Notes under the pieces: model-generated
What the model saw: the letters and a program-made list of their open reading frames with translations, nothing else
Databases searched by the model: none
What the model was told of the DNA's origin: nothing
Position numbers and translations under genes: made by a program
Part shown: positions 3,860 through 63,913 of the stretch, in pieces
Position numbering within the stretch: position 1 is the stretch's first letter
How the letters are laid out: each line of letters opens with the position of its first letter
Assembly (NCBI RefSeq): GCF_032854445.1
Contig: NC_088301.1
Coordinates: 25,838,402 to 25,902,401 of the forward strand
Direction: 5' to 3'
Origin: Liolophura sinensis
Taxonomy: Eukaryota; Mollusca; Polyplacophora; Chitonida; Chitonidae
Length of the DNA stretch: 64,000 nucleotides

Positions 3860-5754
3860 GACAACACATGTGTCTATATCCTTCCAGAACTGGGAATGCA
3901 CAGTGTTATGACCAAAACATACACAAATCTAGTCTAGCAATTTACAAACTTTGCCACCAAAACGCATATTCCTGTTTTTAGCCTTCACAAAAGATATACC
4001 TCTGCAGAGCTTAATACAATAATTTTGCAACCAAAGCATGAAGGGCCTCAGTTGTAAACAGTTTTCCAATCAAAATATATATATATATATCAGGCAAACA
4101 CTGTACTTAGCATAAAAATTTACCTAAAGAAGTGCATAAATAAATAAACATAGATATCCTACCTTTTAAAAAAAACCCACCTTTCTTAAATAAACAGAAG
4201 TCTTAGTCAAAATCATAAACTTGGTCATGGACAAAATACAGCATCTTCCCTTACTGAGCTTGAAACACGGTACCCTATTGCCTTGTCCAGCAGAACATAC
4301 CCATAGTGTCAATGCTCTACATATCCTTTTACTACCATGTTCATTGCCTTCAAACTCTAATCTAACATCTCTTATCTCCGAAACCTTTCTCACAATGTTG
4401 ACAGTGCTGGAATGGAGGAAGTATCGGAGTACACAACAGATAGAGAACGGTGATTCGCCACAAATGTCCAATAAAAACAAAGGTGACCAAACCATTATGG
4501 GCTTGCTGGCCCATGGGCACTTCTGTGGGGATTGTCCTTTACTAAGATGAAGCCATCAGGAAGTGTTGCTTCCATTGGACAGCCCCTGGCCAAACCATTT
4601 TATTAGTAAGGCTCTCTCTAAAGCTGTAAAGGTCAGCTGCAGCTAGCGACTGGTATTCCACCTTTACTAATGTCACTCTAACCAATTCGCCAGTCAAAAT
4701 ACTAATTGAAGGCAAACCTTTTGCAAACACTGAGTTTTCCTGAAGAATTAACTGCTTTGCAACAAGTGACTGCATTAAACCCAGATCTGGGGTTAAACAA
4801 AGCAATTTATCCTGACATACACACACACACACACACACACTTTCCCCATCATAATTAATAGAGACCAAAAAAAAAATCACCTGTTCACCGCCAGAATTTC
4901 AGCATCAATCACTTGCCTTGTTCTTCTTTCGTTATGACCTACAGTCTCACAAAACACTCTCCGTCCTTCATCCCCGTTTGCCAGGCACTACTACTCTTGC
5001 AAATTTTTAAGCTTATTGATCAACCCCTCTACATGTTATCACACCGTCAAGCCGTCATGAATATCTTGCACCTCCGGTTCCCTCCCGCAAATTTATTCAT
5101 AGAAGCCGTTCTTAAGTCACAATAACTAGTCTGCTTATTCCTGACTGAACTGCCAATGTTTGTCAGGTCATAAAACGAAAATCAATGTCAAAGTGAGTCA
5201 TGAGGAGTGTCATTTCCTGCTGGTATAAAAATTGTCCCCATCAGTGGACATATGAGCCAGAGAATGGTACAAAAAACAAAAAGCCATGTGATTAGCTAAT
5301 TAGTTTGAAGACAGGATTACCTATTTCTTCTCATTCATAGAAAATCTCTTTCTCCATTTCAAACATCAAAAGGAATGTAGCATTAATTAAGAACGAAGAG
5401 AAAGTTAATGAAAATTAATTAATCAGAAGACAGGAGTCTACCTGGACTATACTGAGGCAAAGGCTGAAATAGAACCATGAAATCATGTAGGTACCAACCG
5501 TGAACTGAATGTTCATGTAGCTGATTTCCTTTCAATATCTCACTTGTGTCAAATCTCACTGTGATTTTTGTACTTTTATTTTTTTTTAAAGCCCTACTTT
5601 TACTGAAATGGACCAGACCGAAAGCAATGACGACGTGTGTTTCCTATACATGATGTCAAGGTGTGCTTTCAAAAGTCTGAAAAAACTTCGACGACAATGT
5701 GTAGCTGGAGCTATTTCGAAGGAGTTAATTTGGGGCCCATGTATTTTTTAATAC
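3860..5754. other. Stretch without a supported gene
   Basis: AT-rich unique sequence with a (CA)n at 4817-4840. Open frames up to about 110 codons overlap on both strands without splice borders or recognisable motifs. Confidence 0.4.
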
Positions 5755-6865
5755 ATTATTCACCTGGTAGCTGCTACTGTACTGTATCCGTGACACACAG
5801 TTATCCCCATGCAGTATGCCTGTTGTTAGCTAGCAGCATGTCACTGAACACTATTCACCTGGTAAATACTACTGTACTGTATCTGTGGCACACAGTAATC
5901 CCCACGCAGTATGCCTGTTGTTAGCTAGCAGCATGTCACTGAACACTATTCACCTGGTAGATACTACTGTACTGTATCTGTGGCACACAGTAATCTCCAT
6001 GCAGTATGCCTGTTGTTAGCTAGCAGCATGTCACTAAACACTATTCACCTGGTAGCTACTACTGTACTGTATCCGTGACACACAGTAATCCCCATGCAGT
6101 ATGCCTGTTGTTAGCTAGCAGCATGTCACTAAACACTATTCACCTGGTAGCTACTACTGTACTGTATCCGTGACACACAGTAATCCCCATGCAGTATGCC
6201 TGTTGTTAGCTAGCAGCATGTCACTGAACACTATTCACCTGGTAGGTACTACTGTACTGTATCCGTGACACACAGTAATCCCCATGCAGTATGCCTGTTC
6301 TTAGCTAGCAGCATGTTACTAAACACTATTCACCTAGTAGCTACTACTGTACTGTATCCGTGACACACAGTAATCCCCACGCAGTATGCCTGATGTTAGC
6401 TAGCAGCATGTCACTGAACACTATTCACCTGGTAGGTACTACTGTACTGTATCCGTGACACACAGTAATCCCCATGCAGTATGCCTGTTCTTAGCTAGCA
6501 GCATGTTACTAAACACTATTCACCTAGTAGCTACTACTGTACTGTATCCGTGACACACAGCAATCCCCATGCAGTATGCCTGTTGTTAGCTAGCAGCATG
6601 TCACTAAACACTATTCACCTGGTAGCTACTACTGTACTGTATCCGTGACACACAGTAATGCCCATGCAGTATGCCTGTTGTTAGCTAGCAGCATGTTACT
6701 AAACACTATTCACCTGGTAGCTACTACTGTACTGTATCCGTGGCACACAGTAATCCCCATGCAGTATGCCTGTTGTTAGCTAGCAGCATGTTACTAAACA
6801 CTATTCACCTGGTAGCTACTACTGTACTGTATCCGTGGCACACAGTAATCCCCATGCAGAGAACA
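5755..6865. repeat. 95-bp tandem repeat, about 12 units
   Basis: Unit marked by CTATTCACCTGGTAGCTACT and TTAGCTAGCAGCATGTCACT; spacing 95 bp. A few alternating variants (GTTACT/CTAGTAG) suggest duplication of two-unit blocks. Confidence 0.92.
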
Positions 6866-9778: not shown

Positions 9779-12700
9779 CTACAGACAGGGATTAATACAA
9801 CATAGTCCCAGGTATAGATGAGCACACTGCATGAAACAAAGTGTTAATTACTGTCAGTTCTTTCTACCATATCGATTCCGTCACTATCTCTCCCTCATTT
9901 ACCTCTCAAGTAATCAATATAGTAAATGACAATTTAACAGCACATGAAAACACTGCATAAAAAAAGTGTTAATTACTTTCAGTTCTTTCTACCATATCGA
10001 TTCCGTCACTATCTCTCCCTCATTTACCTCTCAAGTAATCAATATAGTAAATGACAATTTAACAGTACATGAGAACACTGCATAAAAAAAGTGTTAATTA
10101 CTGTCAGTTCTTTCTACCTTATCATTGCCATCACTACCTCTCCTTCATTTACCTCTCAAGTAATCATTACAGTAAATGACAATTTAACAGTACATGAGAA
10201 CACTGCATAAAAAAAGTGTTAATTACTTTCAGTTCTTTCTACCATATCGATGCCATCACTACCTCTCCTTCATTTACCTTTCAAGTAATCATTACAGTAA
10301 ATGACAATTTAACAGTACATGAGAACAACAAATGAGAAAAAGTGTTAATTACTGTCAGAACTGTCTACCATATCCATGCCATCACTACCTCTCCTTCATT
10401 TACCTCTCAAGTAATCATTACAGTAAATGACAATTTACCAGTGCATGAGAACACTGCATATAAAAAGTGTTAATTACTTTCAGTTCTTTCTACCATATCC
10501 ATGCCATCACTACCTCTCCTTCATTTACCTCTCAAGTAATCATTACAGTAAATGACAATTTACCAGTGCATGAGAACACTGCATAAAAAAAGTGTTAATT
10601 ACTTTCAGTTCTTTCTACCATATCCATGCCATCACTACCTCTCCTTCATTTACCTCTCAAGTAATCATTACAGTAAATGACAATTTACCAGTGCACGAGA
10701 ACACTGCATATAAAAAGCACTAATTACTTTCAGTTCTTTCTACCATATCCATGCCATCACTACCTCTCCTTCATTTACCTTTCAAGTAATCATTACAGTA
10801 AATGACAATTTACCAGTGCATGAGAACACTGCATAAAAAAAGTGTTAATTACTTTCAGTACTGTCTACCATATCGATGCCATCACTACCTCTCGCTCATT
10901 TACCTTTCAAGTAATCATTATAGTAAATGACAATTTAACAGTACATGAGAACAACAAATGAGAAAAAGTGTTAATTACTTTCAGTTCTTTCTACCATATC
11001 GATGCCATCACTACCTCTCGCTCATTTACCTCTCAAGTAATCATTACAGTAAATGACAATTTACCAGTGCATGAGAACACTGCATAAAAAAAGTGTTAAT
11101 TACTTTCAGTACTGTCTACCATATCGATGCCATCACTACCTCTCGCTCATTTACCTCTCAAGTAATCATTATAGTAAATGACAATTTAACAGTACATGAG
11201 AACAACAAATGAGAAAAAGTGTTAATTACTTTCAGTTCTTTCTACCATATCGATGCCATCACTACCTCTCGCTCATTTACCTCTCAAGTAATCATTACAG
11301 TAAATGACAATTTACCAGTGCATGAGAACACTGCATAAAAAAAGTGTTAATTACTTTCAGTACTGTCTACCATATCGATGCCATCACTACCTCTCGCTCA
11401 TTTACCTTTCAAGTAATCATTATAGTAAATGACAATTTAACAGTACATGAGAACAACAAATGAGAAAAAGTGTTAATTACTGTCAGTACTGTCTACCATA
11501 TCGATGCCATCACTACCTCTCCCTCATTTACCTCTCAAGTAATCATTACAGTAAATGACAATTTAACAGTACATGAGAACACTGCATAAAAAAAGGGTTA
11601 ATTACTGTCAGTAATGTCTACCATATCCATGCCATCACTATCTCTCCTTCATTTACCTCTCAAGTAATCATTACAGTAAATGACAATTTACCAGTGCACG
11701 AGAACACTGCATATAAAAAGCGCTAATTACTTTCAGTTCTTTCTACCATATCCATGCCATCACTACCTCTCCTTCATTTACCTTTCAAGTAATCATTACA
11801 GTAAATGACAATTTACCAGTGCATGAGAACACTGCATATAAAAAGTGTTAATTACTGTCAGTTCTTTCTACCATATCGATGCCATCACTACCTCTCCCTC
11901 ATTTACCTCTCAAGTAATCATTACAGTAAATGACAATTTAACAGTACATGAGGACACCAAATGAGCAAAAGTGTTAATTACTGTTGGCACTTTCTACCAT
12001 ATTGATGCCATCACTACCTCACCCCCATTTACCTCTCAACTAATCATGACAGTTAATGATAATATAACGTTAGATGGTGTCACTGCATGAGACAAAACAT
12101 TACGTAATGCTAGAGCATTAAATCGTATCGATTCCATCTACCCAGTTACCTCTTCTGCAATCAATGCAATGGCAAAGGTACCTGTGGATTCCTGGTTGAT
12201 GTTTGATGAGCAGTAAGTGCTAATGTCAGTAAATGGTCGTCCTTGACACCTACATGTACACTAATAATTACCTGGCAGGCCTACATTTAATTAACTGCTC
12301 TTCATCCAGGCGACTTACCGCTGACATCAAACAATAAACAACCTGACAGATGCTCTGGATGTAGACAATCAGCTGTGCAGCTGGAGACAATCCATCTGTT
12401 TGGAATGACTGCGCTTTACCATCGCTTTTCACTGTATTAATAAGTCTCCTTGTAGCCACAATGCCAATGTCCATGTACTTAAAGCGCTGCCTCACTGGAA
12501 TGCCAAGCTGGAGACACCAGATAGGACATCGTACCATGTCACAACATACTGTTCCATATTTCTACTTGCTGTATTTCATCTACAGTTTAGTCTTTTTCAG
12601 GTGAAACATTTCGCTTGAACATGACTTATTCATCCACCTTATATGGTCACACTTTTTTTTAAAGATTCATTCATTTCACTAATTTTTTAGTGTTGACATC

Positions 12701-22407: not shown

Positions 22408-25400
22408 CTGAAAGAAAAAAACAAAACAACTTACTTGAGGACAGGAAACAGGATACAGCATTGACTTACATTTTTTTTACTTTAGGAGAGAATGTACAAC
22501 TCACAAAACCAGATCAAATGCAAACTCATCAGAACAGGAGAATTCCCCACAACATTATAGCCCATGCTAAATACGCAAAACTTATGCCTGGAGTAAGCTG
22601 GTTTTGAAACTCAACCTGGAGCATCACAAACAAATCAGCACACAAGTCACATGAAAACATCAGCCAACTTTTGCAGTAGTTCATGCACAGGTACTGATGG
22701 TCAATAACAATCAGATAAATTATTAAATATACAAAATTTACGCCTGGATCGGGCTGTTTTTGAACATTATGTGAGGTACCACAAAGCAAACCTGCAGACA
22801 CATTTTTTTTTAAAGATACGGCAATATTTGGCACAGTTACTACACAGAGACCAAAACCAACGTGACAGACAAACAGACAGACACACTCAAATTAATACCC
22901 TCAGCATTTTCTGAAGTTGTTTATGCATGAATGCAACCATACATTATAAGGTACAGACTCACTGGCACTGCACTGAAATTAGCTACGATAACCACTGACA
23001 TCTGACTACCTAGAACATGCCACAGAACATGCCACAAAAAATATAAAAGACAACGAATAATTCAACAAAGAATGGAGTCAGTTGTATGCTGCACTGATAT
23101 GTTCAAACTTACCTCGTCATCCACAATAGCAGGGGGTGTGTTAAGTGCTTTCTTGTAGTAATACACAGCTGCGTACTTAAGATCTGTTAGGCATTTAAAA
23201 AAAAAAAACAAGTCTTTCAATATAACAAGAATAAATTTTTTGTATTTTCTGTTAAGAGAATGTCCCCAGATACACATTAAATCTAACGAAGACAGTATAA
23301 AAACAGTTTGATGTAGGACAACATTTGGTATTGGATTATCACCAAGTTTCTCTTGTCATTATGCATACAGGTGTAGCACAAAAGTACTCATGCTATCTGG
23401 ATCCCAAAACCCAGTCATTTCTGCTGAACTCTCATTAAATTCTAGGATTCTACGGAAATCCCTCCAACCTTCCATCCTCACCTAACTGATGCATGGCTCT
23501 TCCCAGGTTATAGTACGCCTCCTGACACTCTCCTCGCAGGTCCATGTACTTATGCAGAAAAGAACAACCCTGCCGAGGAGAGACGAAAGGGTCATTTTAC
23601 ATCACAGGTATATCAAAAACCTTTCAATCAGTCAATGCCTCAAAGAGCATAAATAAAAGATGTTAGTTTCCAGATTCAGCTACAGGCCCTAATTAAAACC
23701 TGTTTAACAGTATGTGACCGGGAGGGCTTCTGAGAAACTTAATAATGACTTTAATCCATCAAAAACAACAGATTTACTGCCCTAGACAATCTCCAGCTGG
23801 CCAGCCCGGTACGGCTCAGCAGGTGACGTCATAGATGGCCAACGCAAGTCCAGCTGGCCTAAATAACATGGGTATTTGTATCAAAATAATGTCATTTTTG
23901 GGATGCACAGAAGCAAATATACAGCTGTATCAGTTTGAACCCACAGCAGACCATGTTGAAATTCCCATCTATGACGCTGATATCTCTGGTCAGGCTTCAG
24001 ATTACCAGTTTTCAGATGTTCAATTTGATCTTTGTCCACGCATTTCCAGCCATACTGGCAATAATACAGATGGGTAAGCTATAGCCTTACCCGGTGATAC
24101 TCTGTACATTTCGTGTGTTTATTTTAAGATTTAATATTTATTAAATATTCCTTACCCCTGTCCGTTTCACAATAAACATTCTATTCCCCGAGGGATTCTA
24201 AATTCATACCTACATGAGATGACAACTGCCAGTACATGTTATTGCATTACAGATAAAGTGGTGTACAACATAAATACATGTAGGGTTTTTCAAATCAGTT
24301 TACAAAATTAAAACCTGTCATTCTTCAACTAAACTAGGTTGCTTTAACTTCAGAACTTGCTACTAGCTATTTTCAGGTCTCACCTAACCACAGCTTAAAT
24401 GTAGTTCTAAAAACGCATTGTTTAAATGGAAGAGTGATCTTAATGGAGATAATGCAGTACAGCCCTATTAAAACCAATGACAACATTTTCTACCTGTGTG
24501 AGAAGTGCATGCCTCTTGTCAGCAAACTTCTGGGCCGCCATGTGAACAAAGGTAAGACCAATACAAAGGTTAAGTAATGCGTTGTTTGGGTCGTGCCGTA
24601 ATGCACTGGTGTACTCCCCTAAAATATACAAGCATAAGAAAATCACATTTATTTGATTTATGCATTTCGCTAATGTTTTACACTATACTATTACAACAAT
24701 ACTTAGTTTGTATGCCCGCAGCCAGGTTTATGGGTAGAGATGGAAGCCAAAGGAAAACAGAAAGTGACAAGCAAAATGAATGGCATAGGAAAACAGAAAA
24801 AAGCAAAGAGGAACCTTCACTCAATTCCATGAGGCAGGAGTACTGTAGCTGGATTCTGATCCATAGCTAGTGGTCCATACCTTAATATGTGCACCTTCCA
24901 CCACATATACATGTATGTGTGCACAAATGTATTTATATGTATGTGGCGAAAGGCAAAAGATATCCCCACGAACTTCATGTAAGGCCACATGAAAGACTGT
25001 GTTTCCGTTCACTGCTTACTGCTTGATTGGCTTAAAGAACTGTAGAAACCTGGAAATCTCCTTAATTCTCTACTTTCAGCGTGTCGATCTGCTAAAGATG
25101 ACATGTATTGTGCCATTATCATTCCTACACTAAAAGGACGCTGGCATTGAAAAGGGTTGACATTAGAAAATCAAACACAAGGCTTTATCAAAAATGTCAA
25201 GATTACATTATCCAGTATTTTTATTTTATTATCAGAATGATTTATTTAGTTGAACCAACTGGATGCCACCTTACCTATTGAGTGTTTAAAGCTGCCTGAA
25301 ACCATGGAGATGTGACCATTAAGAATACCCAGCTGAAGATGGTCCGGATGCTGGGGGAGTCGAAAAAAAAACTTCATAATGTCACAGCAAGCATGGAAGA

Positions 25401-28400
25401 AAAAACGACGTTGTTTACAATGGCAAAGCAATAATGAATCTTACACATCCCTAAGGCAAGCAGACGGTAATTACACAATGGCTATGCCCTCGTACAGTGA
25501 TCTCTGCAAAACTGACATGCACCATTTTGTTTTGCCAATTATCACTATGGGGTAGCATCTGACAATAATTGGATACCGACGTGGGAAGTCCGAAGTGGGA
25601 CAAATTACATCATTTCAGTGATGCTGGACATTCCACTGCAGCGTCAACAGAGCGATGTCACAATGAGTAGACTAAATATGTCACACATGAAACCGCCAAA
25701 CGCAACACGTTTTGCATCAGGCAACAAAAGACTTGTGACATGCCAGTCCTTCGCCACACCAGCACCACCTGTTGTGAGAGGATACCCCATTGTAATTATA
25801 ATATATTTGCGGCCGTTAAGCAGCTATCAGGCTGCTGATTACTGACATCAGGGTGAATAAAAAGTAAAACATTCAAAGAAATCTGATTCTTGTAGCATTC
25901 ACATTTAAAAAGAACATTAGAGGATCAAAACAAAGCCAATGAACGAACCCTCATACTGAGTCTCAGACAGAAGCGGTTGTGACGGAGGTCTGCCGAGAAT
26001 AACATCACTTGACAGAACAGGTTCCACGCATTGACATTGTCAAACTCCTGAAAGAAGAAATGTGAGATATGTAATTCACATTATCAAACTTCTACAAACA
26101 GAAATAGGAGATGTGTAATTCACATTATCAAACTTCTACAAACAGAAATGGGAGATATGTAATTCACATTATCAAACTTCCACAAACAGAAATGGGAGAT
26201 ATGTAATTCACATTATCAAACTTCTAAAAACAGAAATGGGAGATATGTAATTCACGCTATCAAACTTCTACAAACAGAAATGGGAGATAGGTAATTCACG
26301 TTATCAAACTTCTAAAAACAGAAATGGGAGATATGTAATTCACATTATCAAACTTCCACAAACAGAAATGGGAGATATGTAATTCACATTATCAAACTTC
26401 TAAAAACAGAAATGGGAGATATGTAATTCACGCTATCAAACTTCTACAAACAGAAATGGGAGATATGTAATTCACATTATCAAACTTCTAAAAACAGAAA
26501 TGGGAGATATGTAATTCAAATTATCAAACTTCTAAAAACAGAAATGGGAAATATGTAATTCACATTATCAAACTTCTACAAACAGAAATGGGAGATATGT
26601 AATTCACATTATCAAACTTCCACAAACAGAAATGGGAGATATGTAATTCACATTATCAAACTTCTAAAAACAGAAATGGGAGATATGTAATTCACGCTAT
26701 CAAACTTCCACAAACAGAAATGGGAGATTTGTGATTCACATTATCAAACTTCTAAAAACAGAAATGGGAGATGTGTAATTCACGTTATCAAACTTCGGAA
26801 AACAGAAATGGGAGATAGGTAATTCAAATTATCAAACTTCTAAAAACAGAAATGGGAGATTTGTGATTCACATTATCAAACTTCTAAAAACAGAAATGGG
26901 AGATGTGTAATTCACGTTATCAAACTTCGGAAAACAGAAATGGGAGATATGTAATTCAAATTATCAAACTTCTAAAAACAGAAATGGGAGATTTGTGATT
27001 CACATTATCAAACTTCTAAAAACAGAAATGGGAGATATGTAATTCATGTTATCAAACTTCTGAAAACCAAAATGGGAGATATGTAATTCACATTAATTCA
27101 TAAAACTGAGATGTGGTTAAATATTCTGTCTGCATTGAATGTCAAGCATAGTTTTGCTAGGCAGAATAGCTTCAACACAGAAATAATGACCTTTACATAT
27201 TTTTAAACTAATGAAGAAAGAAATGCATGATTCATACTTTTTTTTCAAACAGTAAAAACTAAAAATGGAAACCACCCCACTTTCATCAAATACCTGGAAA
27301 ATCTGACTTGTTGATAGTAAATGTCATCTCTGCTAGGCAGAATAACTTCATCACAGAAATAATGACCTTTGCATATTTTTAAACTAATGAAGAAAGAAAT
27401 GCATGACTCATACTTTATTTTCATACAGTAAAAACTAAAAATGGAAACCAACCCACTTTCATCAAATACCTGGAAAATCTGACCTGGTGATAGTAAATGT
27501 CATCTTTGTCAGACATTTTCATGAAAAAAGTTAAATAAACAGTATTATCATTAATAGGGATTACACTTTCTGAATATAGCATAGATTCTAGTGCTGAAAT
27601 TTGGCTGAGACCACTGCAGGTTTCGAACCAGCGACCTCAGAGTAAGGCAACAAATCGCCAGCAATATATGTCAACCGTCTAGACCACTCGACCAACAGGC
27701 CTTCCACAAAAATAGAAGGTAGCTGACCAGTAGACTTTACAGCAAACATGCATTACCCCTCTGATGATCACAAATGACGTCACTCCCTTAGGTGAATATA
27801 AAATTCAGGCCAGTCACTGCAACCTGTACATCATAACACAACCCGGAATTTTACCGAAGATTTCTTACCCTCAAACAGATTTCCTTGACAAATCTGTAGG
27901 CAAACTGTCCGTTCTTGTTCATCATAAATGCCAATACACACATATCTTCAGTTTCCTGCAGAATCAGAAAGAGATTAGAAAGATCATTTCTTTCATTTAT
28001 TTTCCTGGTGTTTACACCAAACTTAAGCTATTTTTTTGCTGCATACATGAAGAGACAGAATTATCAACAATGGGTGGAGGAAACAGATCAATGCCTGGAG
28101 AAACCAGAACACGATAAATTATTTGTATCTAAATGTTAATCTTCTTATAAATTTATTTATTTATTTATTTGATTGGTGTGTTACGCCGTACTTAAGAATA
28201 TTTCACTAATATGACGGCGGCCAGCATTATGGTGGGTGAAAACCGAGCAGAGCCCACGACCATCTGCAGGTTACTGGAAGACGGCTGGAGAGGAAGCCAG
28301 TATGAGTTGTACTTAAACTCACAGCGACTACATTGGTGAGAGACTCCTGGGCCATTACGCTGCGCTAGCGCGTTAACCAACTGAGCCAAGGAGGCCCCTC

Positions 28401-34400: not shown

Positions 34401-37400
34401 ACATTAGAACTTATTTATAACACACCAAAGACATTCAGTCCAATATCAACTTTCAATTAAAGACTATTTAATTACAATTGTGATGGTTCTGCTTAAAATC
34501 GGATAGCTATTGCACTTCTGGTAAAGTTATATCCCATTGTCTTCTTGTCTGATGTTATATTAGTCAAAAGCTGAAGAAAAAATTATTTCTGCATGACCTT
34601 GCAAAATTTTTACTGCAAATTTGTTTTCATACTTCAGAAATCCAAACTTTTATGAATACTATATCCCTTTTTTTTCTCAAAAGTAAAGGCTTCAGAACTG
34701 ATCAAATTCTTTACTTAAATTCAAGAAAATAATATGTAAAGATTGGAGGCTACAAAAATATCTGGGATGACACTGGGGGGATTTACCTGTGGTGAGGGTG
34801 CGTATTGCCTCATCAGCTCTACCCATCTGCTGCTGAAGGTTAGACAAGGCTACACGAGCCTCGGTGTGATTGGGGGCCAGCTCAACCACCTTAGCATAGG
34901 CCTCTTCTGACCGATCTACCTCGCCCAGGATGCTAAGACACTCCGCATAGCGCAGCCACACTGCAGCCTACCACAAAGCAGAGTAAAGGATATATGAAAA
35001 GGTATTATAAAATCAAGCCTCTAACGGCAACGAGGAAAGATATGTCAATAAAATTTGGAAAAAAATCTTCATTTTTGAGATATATTATATATTCTTTAAT
35101 AACCCTTCTATTTTATACACATTCTCCATCAAGGGTAGGATATATTTGCAAATGATGTCACAGAGTAACATACTAAGAATTGCACCCCCATTCAGGCTTT
35201 CCTCCCAACAAAAATGTTTTGACAGCTATCACAGAAGGTCACTTAATTTCCGGCATCATCGCTGGGGCCAACCACTGGGGAAACTGTTGTTCAAAGCCAT
35301 TTCCATGCCCCATGAAGAAAGCCAAGAAACTGTTGTGTATTTGTATAGGTTAGGCCACTTCATACACTCCCTATTCAAAAATATCAAACTAAGCTTTTCA
35401 TGTATACTTTAATAGAAACAATAATTTTAATTGAAAACAACTGCTACAGCCTCATTTATTTATTTTATTTGATTGGTGTTTTAAGCAGTACTCAAGAATA
35501 TTTCACTTATACAATGGCGGCCAGCATTATGGTGGGAGGCAACCGGGGGAAACCCATGGCCATCCATAGGTTGCTGGTAAACCTTCCCACATACGGAGAG
35601 GAAGCCAGCATGTGCTGGACCTTGCTGAACTCACACCGACCGCATTGGTGAGAGGCTCCAGGGTCACTGTGTTAACCATCTCAGTCTGGAAGAGATGGCT
35701 TTAGGTCAGGAGATCTGTCAGGTACCTTAGTGGCACATCTCCCAGTGGTTTCCTCCACTATCGATTGCTATCAACAATTTCAGCCATCTGATAAATAATG
35801 CTCACTTCCTGACAAAGCCCACAAATTTTTACATGAAATTTCAAGACTTTAATTACAACCCCCTCCCCCTCCCTTCCCCTTGTAAGCTCCTCCCCAGCCA
35901 TCACAGACTCGAAGAGCCTTGTAAAGTTGTCTGTCATCTCCGCTGGATGCAGTTTTGTGATACAGTGCTTACCAGGGAGTAGTTCTTGGTTTTGACAAGC
36001 ATCTCCAGGATGGGCCTGGCGTCTTTGTATCGACCCAGGTGCATGTAAGCCTCAGCTACATCCAGATACAGGTCACCACTAGACTCGGCAGATTCCTCCT
36101 GGAGGGGCGAGCGCACATACTGCAAAATACACACACTGGTACAGTAAAATACACACACAGTATCCCAGTATCAGCTAGTACAAAAATACGCACAATATTA
36201 CTGTAAGATGTACTGCAAATTGCACACGCAGAATTATGGTACAGTAACAGGTATTGCCAAATACTGTGAAACTTCATTTTTCAACCACCAATGCACTTTT
36301 TTAAGTGGAAATTTATGCGTACAATTATTATGTAAATTATGCCCAAACTGATTTCTGTGTGTCGTTAAAGGTGTTAGCTTCTTAAAACTGTGCAAAGTAT
36401 TTGCTCCACACTCTCTCAGAATGTTTCTAAATATTGGTTGCAGAGGCGGTTGAAAAGATTGAAGAATTAGGGTACACATACAATATCTTGGTAACAGGTA
36501 CTGCCGGATACACATACAATATCTTGGTAACAGGTACTGCCGGATACACATACAATATCTACACATACAATATCTTGGTAACAGGTACTGCCGGATACAC
36601 ATACAATATCTTGGTAACAGGTACTGCCGGATACACATACAATATCTACACATACAATATCTTGGTAACAGGTACTGCCGGATACACATACAATATCTTG
36701 GTAACAGGTATTGCCGGATACACATACAATATCTTGGTAACAGGTACTGCCGGATACACATACAATATCTTGGTAACAGGTACTGCCGGATACACATACA
36801 ATATCTTGGTAACAGGTGCTGCCGGATACACATACAATATCTTGGTAACAGGTACTGCCGGATACACATCCAATATCTTGGTAACAGGTACTGCCGGATA
36901 CACATACAATATCTTGGTAACAGGTGCTGCCGGATACACATACAATATCGTGGTAACAGGTACTGCCAAATACGCACACACATAGTATCACCCTAACAGG
37001 TGCTGCAAAATACATGCCAAATTCTGCCAAACACTATCACTGCACAAGGTACCATAATATACACACTGAGTTTTTCTACAGGCTGTGCACTGATAATTAC
37101 ATTTATGTATGATTTCTTACTTTCAGACATTTTTCATTCGCTCCGCATGTGTTTTACACAATTCTGGGGGACAATCTAGCATACCTATGTATTTATGTAC
37201 ATCCATTCTCAAAAGAAATATCCAACCAGTAATAGCAAACACAACTGAATAGTTGTATGTCCATGTAAACATTACAAAATTTGTCTAACTCCCACAGCTC
37301 AAGGTGTATCACACAGGCCACCTAGCTTCACCCCCAAGGCTATAGGTAACCACCAGCTTTACCCTCAAGTCTATTGGTTACCATTAACTTCCACACCAGT

Positions 37401-61800: not shown

Positions 61801-63913
61801 GCACTGGTGGTTTCCTCCCACCATAATGCTGGCCGCCGTCGTATAAGTGAAATATTCTTGAGTACGGCGTAAAACAGCAATCAAATAAATAAATAAAATG
61901 ACCTATTTGAAAAAAATAGGCCGGAAAACTAATTCATGACAAACCTAGAGATGAGGTGAAAATCTGCAGTCCCTTCTAGTGCCAGACTAATATTACCTAC
62001 ACTAATGTATTCGCTAGTGATGAATGCAAATTCATTTGCATATTTTTCTTACCTCTTTATCATCAAAGTTACAACAGGGGATCAGTTTGAACGGATCATA
62101 TCTATCCAGTCTTGAGGACTTTGATGATGACTGGGTTGACTGATCAAGGGCAGTGTGCTGCAAAGATAATACATTTATTTACTCGATACATGTAGTTGTT
62201 TACTGCTGCACTCAACATCTTCTCCTCATATGATTCAAGCCAGTTTTATGGGTGGAGGAAATCGCAGTGCCCAGTTCTGACCATTGCTGAGCTATCCCAA
62301 ATTATCCCACTGTCACTGCTGACAGGCAAGTGGTGTGAAATTAACTTCGTGCAAGGCCTCACAAATGAGCACTGTCAACCTCTTATTGCCACCAAGGTTA
62401 TGAGAAACTGCAGAACCCCCTGTATGAGCAACCAGGCCCAGAGCTCTGTATTTACTTCAACAAAAAAGACATTCATGAAAAGTTGGAAGATGTTATTACA
62501 CCTGACATTTCCAACCAGGACAAATTCTCTTTTCACTCTTCACCTAATCAGAGACGCTTGAATTAAGGGTGACCCCTCATGACCATACAACTGAAGTGCA
62601 TATTGTATATCGATCTGATGGTAGACAGACAGAATAAGAATTGAGGCATTTTCATTGATAATATTAAAGCATACAATCAAATGGAATACTAAGTTACACA
62701 TATAAAAGTAAGCAAGAGAAACTAAAATCAATAGCATTTAGAATGTGTCTAGAACTGGACCACTTCTCTACTTCGCTGTCTGGTATTACTTACATCTATT
62801 GTTTTTCCTTCAGCATCTTTCTCATCTACCCAAAAGCCAAATGGGTCTCGAATCTTCCGCTTTCTTGGACGCTGTAACAAACAGAGCCCCCAGAATGTAT
62901 GACTGTTAATACCCAAAAGTTAGCACGTATATTTTGTGGAAGTTTGAGAGCGCCTCACGAACTTGTTATAGCTATGAACTTCTTCATACAATTCAATTAA
63001 ATTCAGTTACAAGTATTTCTTCACAATCTGTCGGTGTGTCAAGGGCTAACTTGATATTTCCTCAACAAAGATGTGCTTGATTGATATTTTACGCTTAAAA
63101 ATTACCCGCTTCTAATTACTAATGAGCCAGCCAACCTCATTAGTCCAGGGCCTGATACATGTAGTCATTGCAAGTAAGCACTTTGACAACCTGGAGCCAA
63201 CCAACCTCATTAGTCAAGGGCCTGATACATGCAGTCAGCACAAGTCAGCACTTTAACCACCTGGAGCCAGCTAACCTCACTAGTCAAGGGCCTGATATAT
63301 GTGGTCATTGCAAGTCAGCACTTTGACCACCTGGGGCCAGCTAACCTCATTAGTCAAGCGCCTGATACATGCAGTCAGCACAAGTCAGCACTTTGACCAC
63401 CTGGAGCCAGCCAACCTCATTAGTCAAGGGCCTGATACATGCAGTCAGCACAAGTCAGCACTTTGACCACCTTGAGCCAACCAATCTCATTAGTCAAGGG
63501 CCTGATACATGCAGTCAGCACAAGTCAGCACTTTGACCACCTTGAGCCAACCAATCTCATTAGTCAAGGGCCTGATACATGTAGTCACCACAAGTCAGCA
63601 CTTTGGCCACCTTGAGCCAACCAATCTCATTAGTCAAGGGCCTGATACATGTAGTCACCACAAGTCAGCGCTTTGGCCACCTGGAGCCAACCAAGTCACA
63701 CACTGACATCAACACACATACACTGTGTGATCTCGATTGACATGATCAATTGTAGCCAACTGATAACATCATCTTACAGTTTAGTGACAAAACAAAAGAA
63801 TAAATTGTGCCATACCATGGCTTCCATCTTCTCCACACTCAAAGACAACTTGTCCTCCACAGACCTCTCTTTGGTAATACCCGACTTCAAAGGACGATTG
63901 TAGCAGGCCTGCT
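55862..63913 (-). CDS. MYSM1: Histone H2A deubiquitinase MYSM1, C-terminal eight exons (partial gene)
   Basis: Exons: 63913-63816, 62871-62794, 62157-62053, 61022-60842, 60229-60102, 58959-58827, 57430-57267, 56032-55862 (stop TAG 55864-55862). Phases are consistent and total 1058 nt, about 352 codons; the Myb/SANT and most of the SWIRM part lie beyond the window. The first exon gives EQACYNRP, matching the end of the SWIRM domain, and the second gives [15 protein letters not shown]. The MPN domain follows with TEVIGLLGG (catalytic Glu), then [17 protein letters not shown], the complete H-x-H-x7-S-x2-D JAMM zinc site. [13 protein letters not shown] and the C-terminal helices come next. MYSM1 removes ubiquitin from H2A K119 in chromatin. 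The CEQAxYNRP and QCEMDP motifs separate it from the related MPND. All key residues are present, so the enzyme looks functional. Confidence 0.92.
56687..56795 (-). mobile_element. SINE family A, 3' fragment in MYSM1 intron
   Basis: Tail and part of the core (TTTTACGCTGTACTAAAGAA), cut after CCGAGGGAAAGG. Confidence 0.65.
57560..57960 (-). other. Open-frame-rich island in MYSM1 intron, probable repeat relic
   Basis: The minus strand reads with one stop through [17 protein letters not shown] and on to [20 protein letters not shown], then [20 protein letters not shown]. It is more GC-rich than its surroundings and contains a CCAAT motif. It could be a degraded transposable-element gene; I do not recognise the family. 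Confidence 0.3.
58187..58228 (+). mobile_element. SINE family A, short 3' end
   Basis: Only CTTCTTGAGTACAGCGTAAA and CACCAATCAAATCAC remain. Confidence 0.5.
58466..58690. repeat. Dispersed repeat E, copy 3, MYSM1 intron
   Basis: TACTGTAAATATCCAACC ... GATGCAAGCTTCATAAAACT ... GGTTGCCAAGGCAACAC. Confidence 0.7.
59360..59518 (-). mobile_element. SINE-like element C, second copy
   Basis: The minus-strand head GGTTGAGCGATTAAGAAACT and B-box-like GAGTTCAATCCC match the 42-kb element, with TTCCTTGTCCAAGG in the core. Confidence 0.45.
59520..59900 (-). other. Second open-frame relic in MYSM1 intron
   Basis: The minus strand is open for about 82 codons, including [20 protein letters not shown] and [13 protein letters not shown]. 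No splice borders fit MYSM1. It may derive from a mobile element; the family was not recognised. Confidence 0.3.
60102..60229 (-). CDS. MYSM1: MYSM1 exon with the JAMM zinc-binding motif
   Basis: It encodes [20 protein letters not shown] and [19 protein letters not shown]. His-x-His, Ser and Asp are at the standard spacing. The acceptor is read as CCCACAG at 60230, because this keeps the conserved VSQT after MDP; a second AG eight bases on would break the frame. Confidence 0.9.
60286..60545 (-). mobile_element. Diverged SINE related to families A/B
   Basis: The 3' edge resembles family A (GATTGGTGTTTAACGTCAC). The interior (GCTGCTTCACTAAAAC, CAGGGAAGTTGG, GGTATGACTCAAC, CCCCGGATC) follows family B. 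It could be a chimera or an old relative. Confidence 0.45.
60842..61022 (-). CDS. MYSM1: MYSM1 exon with the N-terminal part of the MPN domain
   Basis: It encodes [20 protein letters not shown], then [14 protein letters not shown], then [17 protein letters not shown]. The Glu of TEVIG is the catalytic glutamate of JAMM proteases. The acceptor is TTTTCCCAG and the donor GTAAGC, phase 1. Confidence 0.9.
61751..61898 (+). mobile_element. SINE family A, 3' part in MYSM1 intron
   Basis: One of the best-conserved cores in the window (CATAATGCTGGCCGCCGTCG), with a TAAA tail. It is antisense to MYSM1. Confidence 0.75.
63123..63692. repeat. 70-bp tandem repeat in MYSM1 intron, about 8 units
   Basis: Unit CAAGGGCCTGATACATGCAG ... 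CAAGTCAGCACTTTGACCAC; period 70. It lies about 120 bp from the donor of the SWIRM exon. Confidence 0.92.

Follow-up and report, generated by a model that had tools for sequence, protein, structure and literature searches.

Minisatellites that span an exon-intron boundary, on either the donor or the acceptor side, have been described in amphioxus as 'mirage' minisatellites, and the available parts of two reports (PMC3087553; PMC3902484) place them in the globins BflGb6 and BflGb9 as well as in Adh3, TnC and PGBD5. Many of the amphioxus units, though not all, keep the AG or GT of the junction, splicing is reportedly undisturbed, and the copies at the edges of the globin clusters escape homogenisation; in BflGb6 the units are 150-160 bp long and present in 3 or 6 copies. 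In human CBS, according to the accessible sections of PMC2630376, a 31-bp VNTR (c.1444_1467+7) occurs in 16-21 copies with single-substitution differences between units, and the same gene has a duplication known as 844ins68. No chiton or mollusc mirage was found in the literature searched, which covers part of what has been published. The sections available of a study of C. elegans minisatellites near alternative exons (PMC4039745), and of one of gastropod haemocyanin introns (PMC7931591), contain no junction copies.

The array considered here lies at a 3' splice junction of GTF3C3 in the chiton Liolophura japonica and is a mirage minisatellite of the amphioxus type, a kind that is already known. 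As in amphioxus, the unit spans the boundary (25 intron and 19 exon nt, 36 of 44 positions matching the true junction), the array is minisatellite-sized with several copies, AG is kept at the homologous position in many units (17 of 23), and the junction copy is intact, with the edge copy outside homogenisation. In contrast to the amphioxus cases, it belongs to another phylum and has 23 full 44-bp units, with about 22 copies at two further chiton loci (L054 and L074, below); unlike in the amphioxus reports, the frequency of such arrays is estimated, and chiton splicing is predicted from sequence. The CBS VNTR is also comparable, in that its unit, by its name, crosses from the exon into the intron past the donor; however, it is a single polymorphic human locus on the donor side, whereas the GTF3C3 array is on the acceptor side, and 844ins68 is a single duplication. 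As far as the literature searched shows, the present analysis extends mirages to a second phylum, with large arrays on both the acceptor and the donor side, and supplies an approximate frequency together with a null model.

The GTF3C3 array and its host intron

The window, by which we mean the whole 64-kb stretch of DNA analysed, corresponds to C7:25838402-25902401 of the 609-Mb chiton genome; the coordinates below are those of the window, and the gene and its array lie on the minus strand. The molluscan origin of the genome is supported by a haemocyanin gene: the mollusc haemocyanin domain PF14830, not known outside molluscs, has eight matches at one locus, and an open frame there matches haemocyanins in the PDB. 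An earlier note on this DNA had assigned the exon adjoining the array to GTF3C3, and the assignment is well founded: the joined exon pieces match PDB chain 8clk_D with a phmmer E-value of 1.9e-104, and two neighbouring exons by themselves reach 1.3e-15. The exon beside the array (25949..26047) is 99 nt long and in phase 0 (EFDNVNAWNLF...SMR). It is preceded by an intron of 1821 nt (26048..27868) and an upstream exon of 87 nt (27869..27955; ETEDMCVLAF...CLR), and followed by a downstream exon of 76 nt (25275..25350; HPDHLQLGIL...). The host intron reads GTAAGA...TTTCAG, with the acceptor that the note had named. Where the array meets the exon, the true junction is preserved (CAG|GAG, phase 0), and the joined translation aligns to the GTF3C3 chain with zero gaps across the border, indicating that the exon edge has not moved, that the exon is the older element and that the array is the copy.

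A tandem repeat of period 44 and 24.2 copies was called by TRF at 26030-27095, the first 18 bases of this range (26030..26047) being inside the GTF3C3 exon. The array proper (26048..27095) occupies the 3' 58% of the intron and comprises 23 units of exactly 44 nt (27059..26048), with a partial distal unit at 27095..27060, and it ends at the true junction (26048|26047). A tandem array of decoys before the exon had been proposed and is present, but the proposed count of about 24 is better given as 23 decoy junctions and a partial unit. Each unit is a copy of the stretch at 26029..26072, which consists of the last 25 nt of the intron (26072..26048) and the first 19 nt of the exon (26047..26029). 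Phased on the acceptor, the unit consensus is acatatctcccatttctgtttttag|AAGTTTGATAATGTGAATT and the true junction is acatatctcacatttcttctttcag|GAGTTTGACAATGTCAATG; they agree at 21 of 25 intronic and 15 of 19 exonic positions. The homology ends sharply at +19, only 6 of the exon's next 25 bases matching, and the proposal that the array had grown from the intron-exon border is borne out.

The alignment of units to junction that the earlier note had called for yields an exon match above chance: 15/19 in any phase or on either strand was reached in one of 20,000 dinucleotide-shuffled exons, and 15/19 in phase in none of a second set of 20,000. Outside the array, one place in the window matches the exon-like part at 15 or more of 19 positions. 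A search of the chiton's own genome with the array, by a method that skips very common words and so leaves its rarity unproven, returned this place only. In addition, among the 13 anchored GTF3C3 exons in the window, the 14-mer rule (see below) detected copies at this acceptor only (13 copies) and none at the other 12.

Mean identity among units is 92%, against 78% between the units and the true junction, which departs from the consensus at eight positions. This difference is expected if the exon copy stays outside homogenisation, as does the edge copy of a mirage. Pairs of identical units are spaced 3, 4, 6 or 7 units apart (3, 2, 2 and 1 pairs, respectively), which indicates block duplication. 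Collapse or artefact is unlikely, as the L. japonica assembly was made, according to the available part of its description (PMC11068029), from PacBio HiFi reads with a mean of 8.3 kb at 14x, longer than the 1.05-kb array. Just distal of the array, in the same intron, is a 176-bp tandem duplication (27155-27505) with two copies 94% alike. Other large minisatellites in the window, at 9818-12068, 5753-6859, 36473-36967 and 63124-63694 (units of 125, 95, 36/51 and 70 bp, respectively), mark the stretch as array-rich.

Decoy acceptors within the array

Acceptor strength was scored with a matrix derived from 82 acceptors of this chiton genome, their exon edges being placed by means of a splice-site consensus. 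Among these, the true GTF3C3 acceptor falls at the 61st percentile; 17 of the 23 decoys reach at least the 5th, and one outscores the true site. The pre-mRNA would, as the earlier note proposed, carry a ladder of acceptor-like sites. The six units without AG at the homologous site have GG (four) or CG (two), and with the AAG found three nucleotides after that site in 23 of 23 units and three further AGs within units, the array holds 43 AGs besides the true one. From every one of these 43, a premature stop would be reached in no more than 28 codons irrespective of frame, so the remark that 44 is not a multiple of 3, and that mis-splicing would therefore mostly shift the frame, is moot.

The loss of AG from some units is real at the homologous place, but all 23 retain the AAG three bases on. 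Selection behind this loss, as the earlier note had suggested, was considered and rejected: the A of AG is replaced in six of the 23 units, and several other positions vary as much or more (in 9, 7 and 6 units). Moreover, the units that have lost AG fall into two unit types, as expected if they descend from about two events.

The GTF3C3 exon beside the array has a weak donor (ATGAGG|GTTCGTTC, at 25949), which lies at the 2.5th percentile among 80 donors of this genome. For exon definition, such a donor next to a row of decoy acceptors makes an unusual setting.

A survey of other exon edges

Motor-protein exons, chosen without regard to repeats, were sampled as the best-scoring matches listed for three families (30 of 81 for the myosin head, 26 of 132 for kinesin and 28 of 86 for DHC_N2). 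The 84 exons provide 84 acceptor and 83 donor edges, or 167 in total, one of 168 being undefined. No locus was dropped, and for the six whose match contained at least three stops (L028, L040, L043, L046, L047 and L076) the longest stop-free piece was used. The figures that follow are limited by the setting of exon edges with a splice-site consensus, by overlap among some loci and by the restriction to three families.

Arrays called by TRF span four of the 167 edges, or 2.4% (Wilson interval 0.9-6.0%), and a probable fifth raises this to 3.0% (1.3-6.8%). Two of the four are donors, L023 with a 66-bp unit and 16 exon nt, and L054, a kinesin locus (region of G000:C11:27412983-27413150) with 21.6 copies of a 73-bp unit that includes about 54 exon nt. 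The other two are acceptors: L041, also kinesin (region of G000:C8:682171-682380), with a 64-bp unit and 23 exon nt, and L074, with about 22 copies of a 66-bp unit and 36 exon nt. The L054 unit holds motor-domain coding sequence, and the first copy in its array differs little from the exon. The probable fifth, L031, is a donor with a 32-bp unit and about 8 exon nt, which rests on inspection and scoring and was missed by all four detection rules; these found edge arrays at three (14-mer), four (20-mer), three (12-mer) and four (TRF overlap) of the 167 edges. Arrays at L015, L020 and L029 proved on inspection to lie near edges and not to span them, and were excluded. The sample is small, but it suggests that tandem copies of splice junctions are frequent in this chiton.

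Control positions in exon interiors gave 28 hits in 27,546 under the 14-mer rule (22 at L054, 5 at L074, 1 at L041), 18 in 26,550 under the 20-mer rule (all at L054) and 28 in 27,878 under the 12-mer rule (18 at L054, 6 at L074, 2 at L036 and one each at L031 and L069). Most interior hits fall in mirage loci because the unit there contains more of the exon, and three of the 12-mer hits lie elsewhere.

At these five edges, 45 of 67 copies keep GT or AG (6 at L023, 19 at L054, 6 at L031, 8 at L041 and 6 at L074), and all 45 reach a stop. Decoys equal or exceed the score of the true site in 8 of 11 cases at L041, where the eight score higher, in 6 of 6 at L023, 6 of 10 at L031, 3 of 20 at L054 and 0 of 20 at L074.

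Array density and chance expectation

With arrays defined by a period of at least 12 and at least 2.5 copies, the 273 kb sampled contain 56 arrays with a mean period of 56, covering 11.3% of the sequence. Array density multiplied by period gives 0.0115 per edge, or 1.92 spanning arrays expected in 167 edges; hand estimates give 1.75, if the four mirages are removed from the array set, and 1.4, if the unit must straddle the edge with 8 nt in the exon and 8 nt in the intron. Against 1.92, the Poisson probability is 0.13 for four observed arrays and 0.046 for five; against the stricter 1.4, it is 0.054 and 0.014, respectively. Nothing indicates that junction-spanning arrays are depleted, and any excess over chance is mild, the expectation being rough; the null model nearly explains their frequency. 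Arrays thin out towards exon edges: they cover 3.0% of the sequence lying no more than 25 nt from an edge, a figure that drops to 0.6% if the five mirage edges are excluded, compared with about 12-14% at more than 400 nt from edges.

Origin and persistence of the array

It is very probable, in our judgement, that a 44-bp segment of the border was tandemly duplicated and expanded on the intron side, giving a neutral mirage that is tolerated because the copy at the exon end works. The segment from -25 to +19 would have become a minisatellite, possibly through slippage or unequal exchange; the copy touching the exon would have stayed functional and coding, leaving the protein unchanged, while the remaining copies became intron. 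Later growth may have proceeded by block duplication and homogenisation, with the exon copy left out. More generally, the array would be one instance of a recurrent outcome in this chiton. Minisatellites may be born frequently and at any position, and where the unit holds a junction the array could survive right up to the exon, since the copy nearest to it remains usable: an ordinary array at a splice site destroys the site, whereas one built of junctions supplies a working copy, so that survivorship is the simplest account. Neutrality and correct splicing are what we infer here. The exon-nearest site would be chosen through its proximity in exon definition and because it is the better site at this locus (CAG|G versus TAG|A in most decoys), and use of a decoy would lead to a premature stop and presumably to decay of the transcript.

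Acceptors share a consensus, so the intronic part of the match is by itself weak evidence, and a pyrimidine-rich minisatellite might resemble one by chance; the exonic match of 15/19 in phase with the border, and its near absence from the shuffles, leave this reading a negligible probability. Descent in the opposite direction, with an intronic minisatellite supplying the acceptor and the first codons of the exon, would draw on the fact that the unit has a usable acceptor and a stretch free of stops in the exon's frame. Such exonisation is nevertheless very improbable, as the protein alignment to the PDB GTF3C3 chain is gapless across the edge, the match is limited to 19 nt at the start of the 99-nt exon, and the copied part at L054 (54 exon nt) and L041 codes for the kinesin motor domain and must be older.

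A functional array, in which decoys compete with the true acceptor, tie GTF3C3 output to nonsense-mediated decay and let copy number tune expression, would fit the 17 decoys in the score range of genuine acceptors, the one that exceeds the true site and the premature stop reached from every decoy AG. In addition, the weak donor deprives the exon of a strong partner site for its definition and could make it sensitive, which gives such regulation some room. We regard it as improbable all the same, since stops are expected from intronic units anyway, are also reached from all 45 GT- or AG-keeping copies at the five edges of other genes, and arrays of this kind occur at close to the random expectation. 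Another reading is that splice junctions are preferred birthplaces of minisatellites, with R-loops or slippage in the polypyrimidine tract as conceivable causes. Five spanning arrays against 1.92 or 1.4 expected, and the repeated occurrence of the same kind in amphioxus, as far as the available parts of those reports go, argue for such a preference, and with five being above the random expectation junctions might be mild hotspots; however, the four arrays called by TRF are not a significant excess under either estimate, and the expectation is rough, so this too seems unlikely. The duplicated border with its neutral expansion remains the reading that we prefer.

Implications

On balance, we lean towards the view that tandemly amplified splice junctions form a common class of structure in this chiton's genome, at a few per cent of its exon edges, donors and acceptors alike. 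Their persistence at chance frequency or above it would reflect the reliability with which metazoan splicing selects the site closest to the exon from as many as about 20, several as strong as the true one. If so, every such gene would be a natural experiment setting proximity against site strength. Should the sample hold genome-wide, large numbers of genes in this chiton would carry ladders of equivalent splice sites, and mirages would be the expected result of frequent minisatellite birth and no peculiarity of amphioxus. With these ladders, long-read RNA sequencing could address the old question of how splicing finds the correct site in a row of almost identical ones, and the arrays also bear on intron gain and on the growth of intron length by duplication of boundaries.

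In the same assembly, the contig G000:C99 (108,685 bp) has COX1 matches every ~15.5 kb, and it is a tandem multimer of the mitochondrial genome, probably an artefact of assembly.
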